The position numbers were made by a program, and so were the translations under genes. The notes below the pieces were generated by a model. That model did no database searches. It was given only the letters and a program-made list of their open reading frames with translations, and was not told where the DNA came from. 64,000 nt of DNA from Rikenella microfusus (GTDB lineage Bacteria; Bacteroidota; Bacteroidia; Bacteroidales; VadinHA17): contig DZBJ01000014.1 of the NCBI GenBank assembly GCA_022736275.1, positions 1 to 64,000 of the forward strand, written 5' to 3'. This document shows, one piece after another, positions 1 to 50,255 of the stretch. Each line of letters starts with the position of its first letter. The stretch's first letter is position 1.

Positions 1-183
1 ATCGAAAATCTGCAATCGAAAATTCTATCGCCTTCCCTGCAATCTGGCTCCTTCGCTAAAATGACCCACCGGGTCATTTCTTAACGCTCGGCCCTCTACT
101 GCCTATTGCCTTATATGACTTACTGCCGACTGCCGACTTATTTTGCCTGCCGACTGCCGACTGGTGACTGGTGACTGCCTGAA
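1..183. repeat. Intergenic mosaic repeat, copy 1
   Basis: The segment 34-114 is nearly identical to 48385-48465, with about six differences over some 80 bases. It contains a 9-bp stem with a 3-base loop at 59-79. It is followed by tandem short units of the TGCCGACTGCCGACT and GGTGACT type up to about 177. The last codons and stop of the VOC gene lie inside the short-unit part. Confidence 0.8.
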
Positions 184-1265
184 CCAGGCTTTACCCTTGA
201 AAACCGCAATGACTTTATCATCCACGACGGGAGCGGCTTGTTCGGATCACGTTTGCGCAGGTCAAGATACCATCCCAGTTTTTTGATGATGGGCACCTTA
301 TGTGTCTCAACAAACTCTATCAGGGTACCGTCAGGATCTTCGATATAGGCAAAGTGACCTGCTGCCTCGCCCATGTCGAAGCTGTTGCCGTGACGGCTGT
401 TCTGGCTGTCGACGGTGAACGGAAAGCCTGTCCCGGCGCAGTAACTGCGGAGGTTATCCATACCGCTAATGTCATAGCAGAGATGTATGAATCCCGGGTC
501 ACCCCACAACCTTCCTTCAAAGATTTTTGTGGGGGTCCGGTCGGTGGACTGGATGAGTTCCAGCACGCTCTGTCCGTAAATGGGATTGAACCCGCCGTGG
601 AAAGGCCTTGATGGAGCCAGCAGCATCCGCCTGAAGCGTCCGCTGCCGCCCGGCACTGATGAGAGATCTTCAAAGGTGCCGGTGACATCATATACAACAG
701 TGTCGTATCCGAGGATGCCGGAATAGAGCTGCTTCGACCTGTCAATGTCAGTAACGCCTATCAGCGCACCGTACGACCCTCCGGATATCTTCTTCAGGTT
801 CATGAACCAGTCAGTGGCTCCCACCATATGGAAGATATTCCCGAAAGGATCCCTGACAAAGAAGCTCTTTTTCCCTGCAGGATCTTCTGCCGGTCTGCCT
901 AATACCTCCACACCGTTATCAGTCCAGTACCTCCATGCACTTTTAACATCCTTCACCTTCATCTTGCAGGCGAATATGCCCAGGTCGCCGAGATTTGTCT
1001 CGCGGTCACGGTATTCAGGCTCCTTTCCCTTATGCTGCCATACCTCAAACCCTCCGCCGCTCTGCATATTCATAGCCAGCACGGCGTGCCTGCTGCGTGT
1101 CTCGCCTCCGGTATAAGGGAGCATCAGCCTTGCTTCAGCCTCATCCTCAAAAATGCGGCAGTCCATTCCGAATGCCCTTATGTACCAGTCCCATGCTTCA
1201 CTGAGGTCATGCACACCGACCCCCATCTGCTGTATGCCTCTGATTGTGTAACCCTTGAACTTCAT
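138..1265 (-). CDS. Two-domain VOC (glyoxalase/dioxygenase fold) protein
   Basis: This 375-residue protein has two vicinal-oxygen-chelate modules, roughly residues 8-155 and 165-322. Each opens with a GVGVHDL or GVTDIDR-type strand and closes with a D-P-F-G-N or D-P-D-G-T turn before the metal-ligand strand. The family includes metal-dependent dioxygenases, glyoxalases and resistance proteins; substrate cannot be told from sequence. It is the last gene of a probable plsC-SDR-VOC operon, 7 bases behind the SDR. The final 14 or so residues (from about G362, rich in G, S, Q and R) are encoded by the intergenic short-unit repeat, so the natural C-terminus has probably been overwritten by repeat insertion or expansion. 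Probably cytoplasmic. Confidence 0.8.
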   Translation of the reverse strand: MKFKGYTIRGIQQMGVGVHDLSEAWDWYIRAFGMDCRIFEDEAEARLMLPYTGGETRSRHAVLAMNMQSGGGFEVWQHKGKEPEYRDRETNLGDLGIFACKMKVKDVKSAWRYWTDNGVEVLGRPAEDPAGKKSFFVRDPFGNIFHMVGATDWFMNLKKISGGSYGALIGVTDIDRSKQLYSGILGYDTVVYDVTGTFEDLSSVPGGSGRFRRMLLAPSRPFHGGFNPIYGQSVLELIQSTDRTPTKIFEGRLWGDPGFIHLCYDISGMDNLRSYCAGTGFPFTVDSQNSRHGNSFDMGEAAGHFAYIEDPDGTLIEFVETHKVPIIKKLGWYLDLRKRDPNKPLPSWMIKSLRFSRVKPGSGSHQSPVGSRQAK

Positions 1266-30982: not shown

Positions 30983-31110
30983 TAGTCCTCAGTCCTCAGT
31001 CCTCAGTCTTCAGTAAATCAATGAGTTATCCCATTGTCTATTGTCTATTGCCTACTGCCTGCTGCCTGCTGATTTTGACTGCCGACTGCCGACTGCTGAC
31101 CACCAACTGG
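30983..31110. repeat. Intergenic short-unit repeats, copy 2
   Basis: Tandem CAGTCCT units at 30986-31013 are followed by TTGTCTATTGTCTATTGCCTACTGCC and TGCCGACTGCCGACTGCTGAC runs up to 31100. It fills the gap between two convergent genes and shares its units with the other intergenic repeat loci. Confidence 0.8.
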
Positions 31111-36556: not shown

Positions 36557-36888
36557 CTCTTCAGTGATCTCCGTCTGGTTCGCGACAGGCAAAGATAGTC
36601 GAAAGTCTGTAAAGTCTGAAGGTCTATTGTCAAAAGGTCTTGTCGTAGCGAAGCGGAGATCCTGACCGAAGCGTCGGGGCGATCCTGCGGTATCGAGGTC
36701 TAATAAATTGATAATCAATTCTTAACTCTTATTTCTTAATTCTTAATTCTTCACTGCCGACTGGTACTGCCGACTGCTGACTGAATCCGACTGGCAATCG
36801 TCTGCATATTGACTATTATCATTAGAATGCGGATATTTATACTCGTAATTTGTATCTGGCACATAAAAAGTCATTTAAACATAATAAT
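36557..36888. repeat. Intergenic region with mosaic repeat, copy 3
   Basis: This 332-base gap holds no gene. It has GTCTGTAAAGTCTGAAGGTCT-type runs at 36603-36625 and a CCGAAGCGTCGG hairpin near 36667. TTCTTAACTCTTATTTCTTAATTCTTAATTCTT follows at 36718-36752 and TGCCGACTGGTACTGCCGACTGCTGACTG at 36754-36783. The ATTCTTAATTCTT part is shared with copy 7. The last 60 bases hold the likely promoter of the oxidoreductase. Confidence 0.75.
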
Positions 36889-40730: not shown

Positions 40731-40858
40731 TCGACTCTGCGGACTTTGCAGATTGAGTATCCGCCTTTGGCGGAGACGAACCGAACCGCCGGCTGGCAGT
40801 GAGCTCGGCAAAGCCAAATCCCGATAACGAAGTGTATCGGGACTTTCGACTTCCTCAG
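40731..40858. repeat. Intergenic mosaic repeat, copy 5
   Basis: Bases 40779-40850 match the reverse complement of 47532-47604 with about five differences over some 72 bases. It contains a hairpin, CCCGATA/TATCGGG with an 8-base loop. It lies between the kamA-like promoter and the 3' end of the phosphoesterase fusion gene, whose stop is at 40855. Confidence 0.8.
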
Positions 40859-43499: not shown

Positions 43500-43612
43500 A
43501 AACAGTTGTCAGATACCTGTTGTCCCGACGCACTTCGTGGCCGGGATTAAGCCTTCTCCTGCGTCGGAGTCCCAAACTGCTGACTGCCGACTCCACTATT
43601 GCCTATTGCCTA
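43500..43612. repeat. Intergenic mosaic repeat, copy 6
   Basis: CCCGACGCACTTCGTGGCCGGG resembles the hairpin of copies 5 and 7 with altered stem bases. GCCTTCTCCTGCGTCGGAGTCCCAAACTGC is shared with copy 8, and TGCCGACT and ATTGCCTATTGCC units follow. It lies upstream of the penicillin acylase remnant. Confidence 0.75.
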
Positions 43613-47502: not shown

Positions 47503-47672
47503 AAGTTGAAAGTCCTTAAAGTCCATAAAGTCCTTAAAGTCCCGATACACTTCGTTATCGGGATTTGGCTTCGCCGAGCTCACCGCCTACCGGCGATTCG
47601 GTTCGTCGTTGCACCCTCAACCTGCGACCTAAGTACCTGACATTCAATTCTTAATTCTTAATTCTTCTCATA
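47503..47672. repeat. Intergenic mosaic repeat, copy 7
   Basis: AAAGTCCTTAAAGTCCATAAAGTCCTTAAAGTCC units are followed by the segment that matches copy 5 in inverted orientation (47532-47604), with the CCCGATA/TATCGGG hairpin. Then comes CAATTCTTAATTCTTAATTCTT, shared with copy 3. Confidence 0.8.
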
Positions 47673-48284: not shown

Positions 48285-48475
48285 ATTGAAGACTACCCTC
48301 CCGATCCTCCAGCCGGCGGATGAGGGAATGAGCCTTCTCCTGCGTCGCAGACTCAAACTGCCGACTGAGGACTACACTATTGCCCTCCCTGCAAACTGGC
48401 TGCTTCGCTAAAATGATCCACCGGATCATTTCTTAACGCTCGCCCCTCTACTGCCTATTGCCTGACCTGCACGAC
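48285..48475. repeat. Intergenic mosaic repeat, copy 8
   Basis: It combines a part shared with copy 6 (GCCTTCTCCTGCGTCGCAGACTCAAACTGCC, 48332-48362) with a part shared with copy 1 (48385-48465). The copy 1 part includes a 9-bp stem at 48411-48431. The stop codon and last residues of the downstream-facing thioredoxin-domain gene lie inside it. Confidence 0.8.
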
Positions 48476-50255
48476 TGAAAGGAGTGCAGGTTTTATTATG
48501 ACAGACGGACTCCGGTTCACCTCTCTTCTGAAGCGAGTTGACCGGGATGGCACTCCACGGAAGCGGCTCCCGGGTGGTGTAAAGGTGGAAGAGATCTTCG
48601 GCAAGCAGCACGTTGATATTATAGAAATCTGACTGGTAGGTCCTGCGCCATACCGCAGGAGCAACATCTCCTCCGGTGAGCAGTGCCACCCGTGTCAGCG
48701 CAATCTCCGCCAGGCTCACCGATGATGGAACCGGATGATCAAACCATGAGGCATAGATCTTCATGAAGTCGTCAGCCTCCGACTCAATCCACCTGCCGTC
48801 CTCGCGGAAAGATCTGACATGCTCAGCCAGGCTGGCCATTGTCTCTCCCCACGACTCATCGGTCTCATAGAGCATGGTGACAGCCAGCAGAAGTGCCGCT
48901 GCATCTGAGAGGAAGCCCTGGCGCTGTAGCACCCCGTCACAGTATGAGTGGGCAAGAGCAGAACCCTCCCTGAAGGTTTCCATCAGTCGCCACACCAGTG
49001 TAACCGCATCGGCCTCCAGGTCAGGACGATCGAGATGTCTTCCTGCCTGGATCAGCGCCACAGCCGTCAGGGCGTTGAGGCCGCAAAGTATCTTGTCGTC
49101 GCGCGAGGGCTGGCTTCGCTTAAGCCTGGCTGCCAGCAGCTTCTCCTCAATGGCATCTATGCTGTCATTGTTCTTCCTGATGAGGTGGTTGAGGCCCTCG
49201 AAGTTGCCCCCGCTGCTTATTTTGTAGACCTCGCGGAACACGGCCAGCTCCTCAGGTGTCAGCAGGGAGGCAAGCTCATCTTCACTCCAGAGGTAAGTGG
49301 CACCCTCCCTGTGGTCGGTATCAGCATTGAAGGCCGAGACATACATCCCGTCATGAAGGAATGTCTCGCAGAGGCTCTTCACAATCTTTTCCGCCATCGT
49401 TTTGTATTGCTCTTTGCCCGTTACCCTGTGCGCCAGCGAGTAGCTCCACAAAGCCATCGCCTGGTCATAGAGCATCTTCTCGAAATGAGGTATTGTCCAT
49501 TCAGGATCGACACAGTAGCGGTAAATCCCTCCCTGCAGATGGTCATTCAGTCCGCGCATCATCATGGCGTCAAGGGTGGTGGTGACCATCTCCTTAAATG
49601 TTCCATCCTCGCTATTAACCGCCATGTAGTACAGCATGAAGAGGAGGGTGGAGTGGGGAGGGAATTTCTGTCCTGATCCGAAACCGCCGTTCTCAGAATC
49701 GAAATATTCTCCCAGGCTCTCAGTCAGCCTCTCAGGGTGGGCCGGGGGCGACTCCTGTTCTGAGGGGCTGAAGGGCCTTATGCTGTCGCCCCTCGACTGC
49801 ATGAACTCCTTCACTGCCTGTGCGATGTAAAGGAATGAATAGCGGTTACCGGAGGTGCGCAACGGGGCATAGGTCAGCGCATGTACCGGCTTCAGGTCAG
49901 GGGTGAGGAAAACATTCAGCGGCCATCCGCCGCTACCGGTCTGAGCCTGGATGAAATGCATCATGTACTGATCAATGTCAGGCCGCTGTTCACGGTCGAT
50001 CTTGATGCTGACGAAGTTGGCGTTGAGGTAGTCAGCAGTTTCCGGGTCAGAGAAAGCTTCGGCTGCCATGACGTGGCACCAGTGGCAGGTGGCATACCCT
50101 ACCGAGACAAGCAGCGGCTTATTCTCCGAAACGGCGTGATCAAGAGTCTCCCTGTTCCATTCCTGCCACCAGATCGGATTGCCGGCATGCTGCTTCAGGT
50201 AAGGCGATGAAGAAATGTTCAGGTTATTCTTTTCCCAGATACTGTTATTACCCAT
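48426..50255 (-). CDS. Thioredoxin-domain (DUF255/YyaL, SSP411-like) protein
   Basis: The 609-residue protein has an N-terminal thioredoxin-like domain with S-P-Y-L-K-Q-H-A near 17, C-H-W-C-H-V-M near 57, and S-G-G-W-P-L-N-V-F-L-T-P near 112. An (alpha/alpha)6 glycosidase-like region follows (H-F-E-K-M-L-Y-D-Q near 260). The family is widespread but has no proven reaction. It ends C-H-N-K-T-C near residue 590. The last 14 residues (A-G-Q-A-I-G-S-R-G-A-S-V-K-K) and the stop are encoded by intergenic repeat copy 8. At 609 residues it is shorter than typical members (about 680). Confidence 0.87.
   Translation of the reverse strand: MGNNSIWEKNNLNISSSPYLKQHAGNPIWWQEWNRETLDHAVSENKPLLVSVGYATCHWCHVMAAEAFSDPETADYLNANFVSIKIDREQRPDIDQYMMHFIQAQTGSGGWPLNVFLTPDLKPVHALTYAPLRTSGNRYSFLYIAQAVKEFMQSRGDSIRPFSPSEQESPPAHPERLTESLGEYFDSENGGFGSGQKFPPHSTLLFMLYYMAVNSEDGTFKEMVTTTLDAMMMRGLNDHLQGGIYRYCVDPEWTIPHFEKMLYDQAMALWSYSLAHRVTGKEQYKTMAEKIVKSLCETFLHDGMYVSAFNADTDHREGATYLWSEDELASLLTPEELAVFREVYKISSGGNFEGLNHLIRKNNDSIDAIEEKLLAARLKRSQPSRDDKILCGLNALTAVALIQAGRHLDRPDLEADAVTLVWRLMETFREGSALAHSYCDGVLQRQGFLSDAAALLLAVTMLYETDESWGETMASLAEHVRSFREDGRWIESEADDFMKIYASWFDHPVPSSVSLAEIALTRVALLTGGDVAPAVWRRTYQSDFYNINVLLAEDLFHLYTTREPLPWSAIPVNSLQKRGEPESVCHNKTCTPFSRAGQAIGSRGASVKK

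Follow-up and report, generated by a model that had tools for sequence, protein, structure and literature searches.

In this work, two repeats in the window (the whole stretch of 64,000 nt that was analysed) were found to be members of a family of DNA hairpins of about 65 nt. The base-paired shape of these hairpins is kept while their sequence varies, and their cores are present or absent as units of ~65 nt at orthologous sites. We read the hairpin family as a new one, REP-like in its behaviour and not a proven member of a tagged REP family. The element is, with moderate confidence, a non-autonomous REP-like miniature DNA hairpin that is moved by putative trans-acting machinery of a non-RAYT kind.

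The two window copies lie in direct repeats of 87 nt at 25-111 and at 48377-48463 (92% identity), and within the window a 40-nt pattern across the hairpin matches these two places only, the number predicted from shuffles being 0. Five differences were counted between positions 34 and 111, and four of them make up two compensatory pairs. The first is the double change that the sequence-only reading had reported within the 9-bp stem, C65-G73 vs. T48417-A48425, which is indeed present. The second had been overlooked: C50-G91 in copy 1 corresponds to G48402-C48443 in copy 2, an outer pair that surrounds P1. The siting of both copies at the 3' ends of minus-strand genes, claimed in the same reading, was confirmed as well, as copy 1 lies past the stop of ORF 138-1265(-) and the stop of ORF 48426-50255(-) falls within copy 2. 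The assembly breaks close to copy 1, only 25 nt of contig C18 being left beyond it, and this truncates the left flank of the copy. The features are collected in Table 1, in which the limits of the copy 1 core were set by comparison of empty and filled sites and by alignment.

Table 1. Hairpin copies, adjoining genes and heptamer arrays in the window (CM, covariance model).
Feature	Position	Strand	Description	Basis
Copy 1 core	30..94	+	16-nt conserved 5' tail GCCYNCCCTGCANNCT and extended imperfect hairpin 46-94	CM match 30-103, 101 bits
P1 of copy 1	59-67/71-79	+	stem; loop 68-70 (ACC)	sequence; covariation
P2 of copy 1	46-94, 47-93, 50-91, 51-90, 55-87, 56-86, 57-84	+	pairs surrounding internal loop	covariation
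Copy 2 core	48382..48446	+		CM match 48382-48455, 102 bits
P1 of copy 2	48411-48419/48423-48431	+	stem with T48417-A48425	sequence, covariation
Glyoxalase-family gene	138..1265	-	3' end toward copy 1	ORF; Pfam PF00903
DUF255/thioredoxin-like gene	48426..50255	-	stop codon inside copy 2; C-terminus ...SRGASVKK	ORF, Pfam
Heptamer array at copy 1 right end	95..110	+	TC-TACTGCC-TATTGCC	pattern scan, sequence
Heptamer array at copy 2 right end	48447..48462	+		pattern scan
Paralogous empty site	43543..43611	+	CACTATTGCC-TATTGCC without core	repeat family D3, sequence

An alignment of 28 copies from the source genome was turned into a covariance model, with which 214 distinct copies were gathered. 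The P1 stem cells in these copies (n = 1913) comprise 1821 Watson-Crick pairs (95%), 32 G-T, 30 A-C and 30 other combinations, these being counts of sequences from related copies and not of independent events. The stem is perfect over nine pairs in 142 of the 214 copies, 87 distinct stem sequences occur among them, and double changes are seen at all nine P1 pairs. The covariation of P2 is strongest at the outer pairs 50-91 (C-G 116, G-C 72, A-T 3) and 55-87 (G-C 161, C-G 17, A-T 6), both in copy 1 numbering; isolated outer pairs beyond the conserved internal loop show double changes too. For the P1+P2 structure, 95.0% of cells are paired vs. 80.6% after shuffling, and the covariation is 0.373 vs. 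0.130 for shuffled alignments and at most 0.111 when the partners are slid by one column. The earlier claim that the hairpin is under selection thus holds in the sense that compensatory maintenance is seen across copies, although the two window copies by themselves are insufficient for it. Random, non-compensating stem changes had been named beforehand as the observation that would speak against the claim; this test was applied to the 214 copies, and the claim withstood it.

The source genome, a draft of 3.15 Mb in 187 contigs, contains 30 copies by the covariance model; the copies were first detected with blastn. With two exceptions, every same-genus genome that was searched carries copies, and so do several further genera of the same family. 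In an order-wide sample, a copy at E<=1e-4 was present in four of 119 genomes, the source genome among them. Where public records with the exact hairpin carry a name, they are Bacteroidales/Bacteroidetes MAGs. Viral contigs gave no match to the exact hairpin pattern, nor did plasmids and phages when searched by similarity. Genome G022, from another genus of the family, has its own diverged set of 26 matches, some in close pairs (loci L169, L176, L183, L188, L193 and L196).

The copies are scattered mostly directly behind genes, and several of them provide the stop codon of the gene, as in ORF 48426-50255. Relatives of this DUF255/thioredoxin-like gene that have no element possess different C-terminal ends. 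An empty site for copy 2 was sought in relatives and none was obtained, the relatives being too diverged and non-syntenic. Within the window, the left context of the paralogous empty site is like that of copy 2 (85% over 61 nt). Cores are frequently embedded in heptamer arrays directly behind genes, with their orientation fixed. In the genome, 12 of the 31 (TAYTGCC)n array sites touch a core, vs. 0.04 expected. Other repeats were also observed. A second interspersed repeat (..CCCGACGCACTTCGTGGCCGGGATTAAGCCTTCTCCTGCGTCGGAGTCCCAAACTGC..) at 43523-43582 and 48304-48363 precedes both array sites, and stretches similar to it occur at L034, L123 and L144. A third repeat consists of inverted 72-nt copies (40775-40846 and 47536-47607, 93%) with the hairpin TCCCGATACACTTCGTTATCGGGA, whose stem is similar to TCCCGACAT, the element's alternative stem. 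Intergenic heptamer arrays of AGTCCTC, GACTGCC and AATTCTT lie at 30984-31014, 36717-36755, 47646-47666 and other places, and a 9-mer array at 47509-47542.

The main rival explanation is an RNA element of mRNA 3' ends, in which the minus strand starts at the stop codon and the hairpin shields the transcript or terminates it. Among the 94 copies with long flanks, a stop codon is found no more than 20 nt from the right end in 37 copies and from the left end in one, as such an element would give; on the other hand, the right-hand gene is directed toward the element in 60 and away from it in 32, that is, away in a third of copies, with genes in both counts called as long ORFs without a gene finder. 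The minus strand is also the better RNA folder (mean -23.9 vs. -19.4 kcal/mol). Selection of the hairpin as RNA predicts that the transcribed strand tolerates G-U far more readily than A-C. However, the 32 G-T and 30 A-C on the plus strand become 32 A-C and 30 G-U on the minus strand, where there is no excess of G-U. Therefore, there is no sign of strand-specific RNA wobble, which fits a DNA hairpin. In a published survey of REP sequences, abundant GT pairs were taken to hint at a function as RNA (PMC3733652). The equal counts of G-T and A-C found here provide a simple test of DNA vs. RNA selection for repeats of this kind. Inspection for an intrinsic terminator showed a stem base that is A/T-rich and exchangeable to TCCC, and neither strand has a conserved T-run following the stem; stems such as TCCCGACAT abolish any U-run. 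Moreover, tRNA-linked copies sit past the gene's own terminator, and Rfam 15 gave no match in the window and only tRNA at six element loci, down to E 0.5. Taken with these points, an RNA element seems unlikely.

The DNA hairpin could be followed as a unit at orthologous sites. At the intergenic site A, the element is found in G020, G013, G018 and G001, and an AATTCTT heptamer array takes its place in G006. Here the stem is swapped en bloc, being TCCCGACA in G020, G013 and G018 and AAATGACCCGCC/GGCTGATCATTT in G001. At site B, the element is present in G020 and G006 and absent from G018, G001 and G010. At site C, which follows a gene that we take to be aldolase-like, the core is present in G020, and in G006 the same two flanks meet directly, with exactly the core missing. 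The core-less site in G006 may represent a loss, rather than the state before a gain. In this sole cleanly aligned pair of empty and filled sites, target duplication amounts to at most ~2 nt. Inverted flanks, tested as terminal repeats, showed no general excess (5.7 vs. 5.4), an excess being seen only at tRNA loci. The excess of direct-repeat flanks (8.0 vs. 6.2) has its source in heptamer arrays and tRNA duplications, and hence is no evidence for a fixed target duplication. Certain copies are old and have orthologues in other species, and current mobility is therefore putative.

Template switching at imperfect inverted repeats is an established mutational mechanism. Template-switch correction of quasi-palindromes could keep a stem perfect with neither selection nor mobility being required, and the whole-stem swap at site A is what it might produce. 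Correction patches would nevertheless erase mismatches, whereas the internal loop has retained its mismatches and the outer pairs covary across it. This route is less likely because isolated outer pairs covary past the kept mismatch loop; it also fails to account for a dispersed set of about 30 copies in which the unpaired 5' tail is conserved. We therefore regard it as improbable.

Some copies adjoin a gene for tRNA-Lys, -Leu, -Gln or -Arg and are surrounded by repeated fragments of that tRNA. Direct duplicates of the tRNA 3' end and terminator accompany tRNA-Lys and tRNA-Gln copies, and inverted tRNA pieces accompany tRNA-Lys and tRNA-Leu copies. These long 3'-end duplications contrast with the duplication-free site C. 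At L030 (265-1600), tRNA-Lys is followed by two elements and one 258-aa gene and then by a copy of the tRNA 3' end, giving the look of a small island. At L024 (1223-1600, tRNA-Gln) and L118 (1366-1700, tRNA-Lys), the element, tRNA 3' end and terminator occur twice in tandem. Such arrangements could be due to tandem duplication or integration. An RNA intermediate, considered from the duplicated tRNA 3' ends that end at the terminator, was dropped as too thinly supported. An att-like recombination site of small integrative units is suggested by copies bounded by duplicated tRNA 3' ends, where full tRNA, element, duplicated 3' end and terminator follow one another, a series that two genomes have in tandem, and where one unit carries a gene between two copies, but it is very improbable, since very few copies are of this kind, the majority of the others are situated in arrays or beside genes, no common neighbour gene such as an integrase stands beside the copies, and attC core boxes were unseen by inspection.

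REP elements are tied to RAYT enzymes in the literature. The absence of a RAYT, previously noted for the window, holds in the whole draft genome, and in the relatives checked no RAYT is flanked by copies. A search with PF01797 in the source genome and 60 relatives gave no RAYT with a link to the copies. The single Y1_Tnp match in the source genome is a 50-aa fragment at a contig end, VWHCQYHIVWVPKFRYRVL, presumably IS200-like. In several copy-rich genomes of the same genus that are at least 90% complete (e.g., G010, G019, G020 and G021), no Y1_Tnp was found, and the same-genus Y1 loci that were fetched have no element copy in their flanks. RAYT presence in relatives does not follow copy number, and RAYT is missing from most genomes carrying the hairpin family. 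Draft gaps might conceal a single RAYT gene in an individual genome; that they do so in every genome is hardly plausible. A protein family common to the copy neighbourhoods and a mobilising protein in the genome and its relatives were both sought, and none was found.

We hypothesize that the mobile unit is the ~65-nt core, which comprises the conserved 16-nt tail and, after it, an imperfect DNA hairpin (the 9-bp P1, and P2 around the conserved internal loop). A trans-acting protein that processes single-stranded DNA would recognise the tail and hairpin in single-stranded DNA (during replication). The same protein may move or copy the core without target duplication, and it would be other than a Y1/RAYT encoded in the same genome. 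The siting behind stop codons would result from tolerated insertion in 3' flanks and from the orientation of the arrays. A further reading, that this is a mobile element of hairpin DNA whose stem module can be exchanged, served by an ssDNA-processing system that is neither RAYT nor a described transposase and is coupled to heptamer-array growth at gene ends, is put forward only tentatively. In several near-complete relatives, hairpins turn over between species with no RAYT in the genome. The missing factor can therefore be traced by presence and absence across the genus.

The classification of the element as REP type was not supported as it stood: it is a dispersed imperfect palindrome with REP-like behaviour (intergenic position, 30 copies, stem subfamilies, turnover as a unit), but it has no conserved GTAG/CGTC tag and no RAYT association. 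A GT[AG]G tag 0-2 nt 5' of the stem is not conserved, the only candidate being CTAC, the reverse complement of GTAG, in 48 of the 214 copies and outside the core. CGTC (TGTC, CCTC) is absent from the stem end, where most copies have GCTA/GCTG as one foot and CTTA/ATTA as the opposite one. The element also failed as a DDE-transposase MITE, because its ends (GCC... and ...SCC) are not inverted and the duplication is <=2 nt in the one clean pair of empty and filled sites, with array sites ambiguous. The attC boxes RYYYAAC/GTTRRRY were unseen in the alignment by inspection.

Like REP/RAYT (TnpA_REP) and the E. coli BIME/REPIN, the family comprises short dispersed intergenic imperfect palindromes with alternative complementary stem subfamilies (PMC3733652, PMC6006769). 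Unlike them, it has no conserved GT[AG]G tag and no copy-flanked RAYT, and several copy-rich genomes are RAYT-free; it possesses a conserved 16-nt tail and is nested in heptamer arrays. The TnpA_REP subclass 2.6 of Bacteroidetes likewise has hairpins without a GT[AG]G tag, yet these flank the transposase gene (PMC6006769), whereas the fetched same-genus Y1 genes have copy-free flanks. The CGTC-tagged palindromic repeats, also of Bacteroidetes, share 8-9 bp stems starting with A/T pairs, and no dedicated transposase is known for them (PMC3733652). The hairpin family differs from these in having no CGTC/TGTC/CCTC at the foot, in its outer P2 helix and 16-nt tail, and in that dimers are not typical. 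Families that bear a tag but have no known enzyme, such as CGTC, pose an open question, for which the hairpin family offers a compact case. Finally, the TAACTGA heptamer direct repeats are similar as intergenic heptamer arrays, some of them in Bacteroidetes (PMC4679880), whereas the arrays described here consist of TAYTGCC and other heptamers, lie at the 3' sides of genes and have hairpin cores inside.
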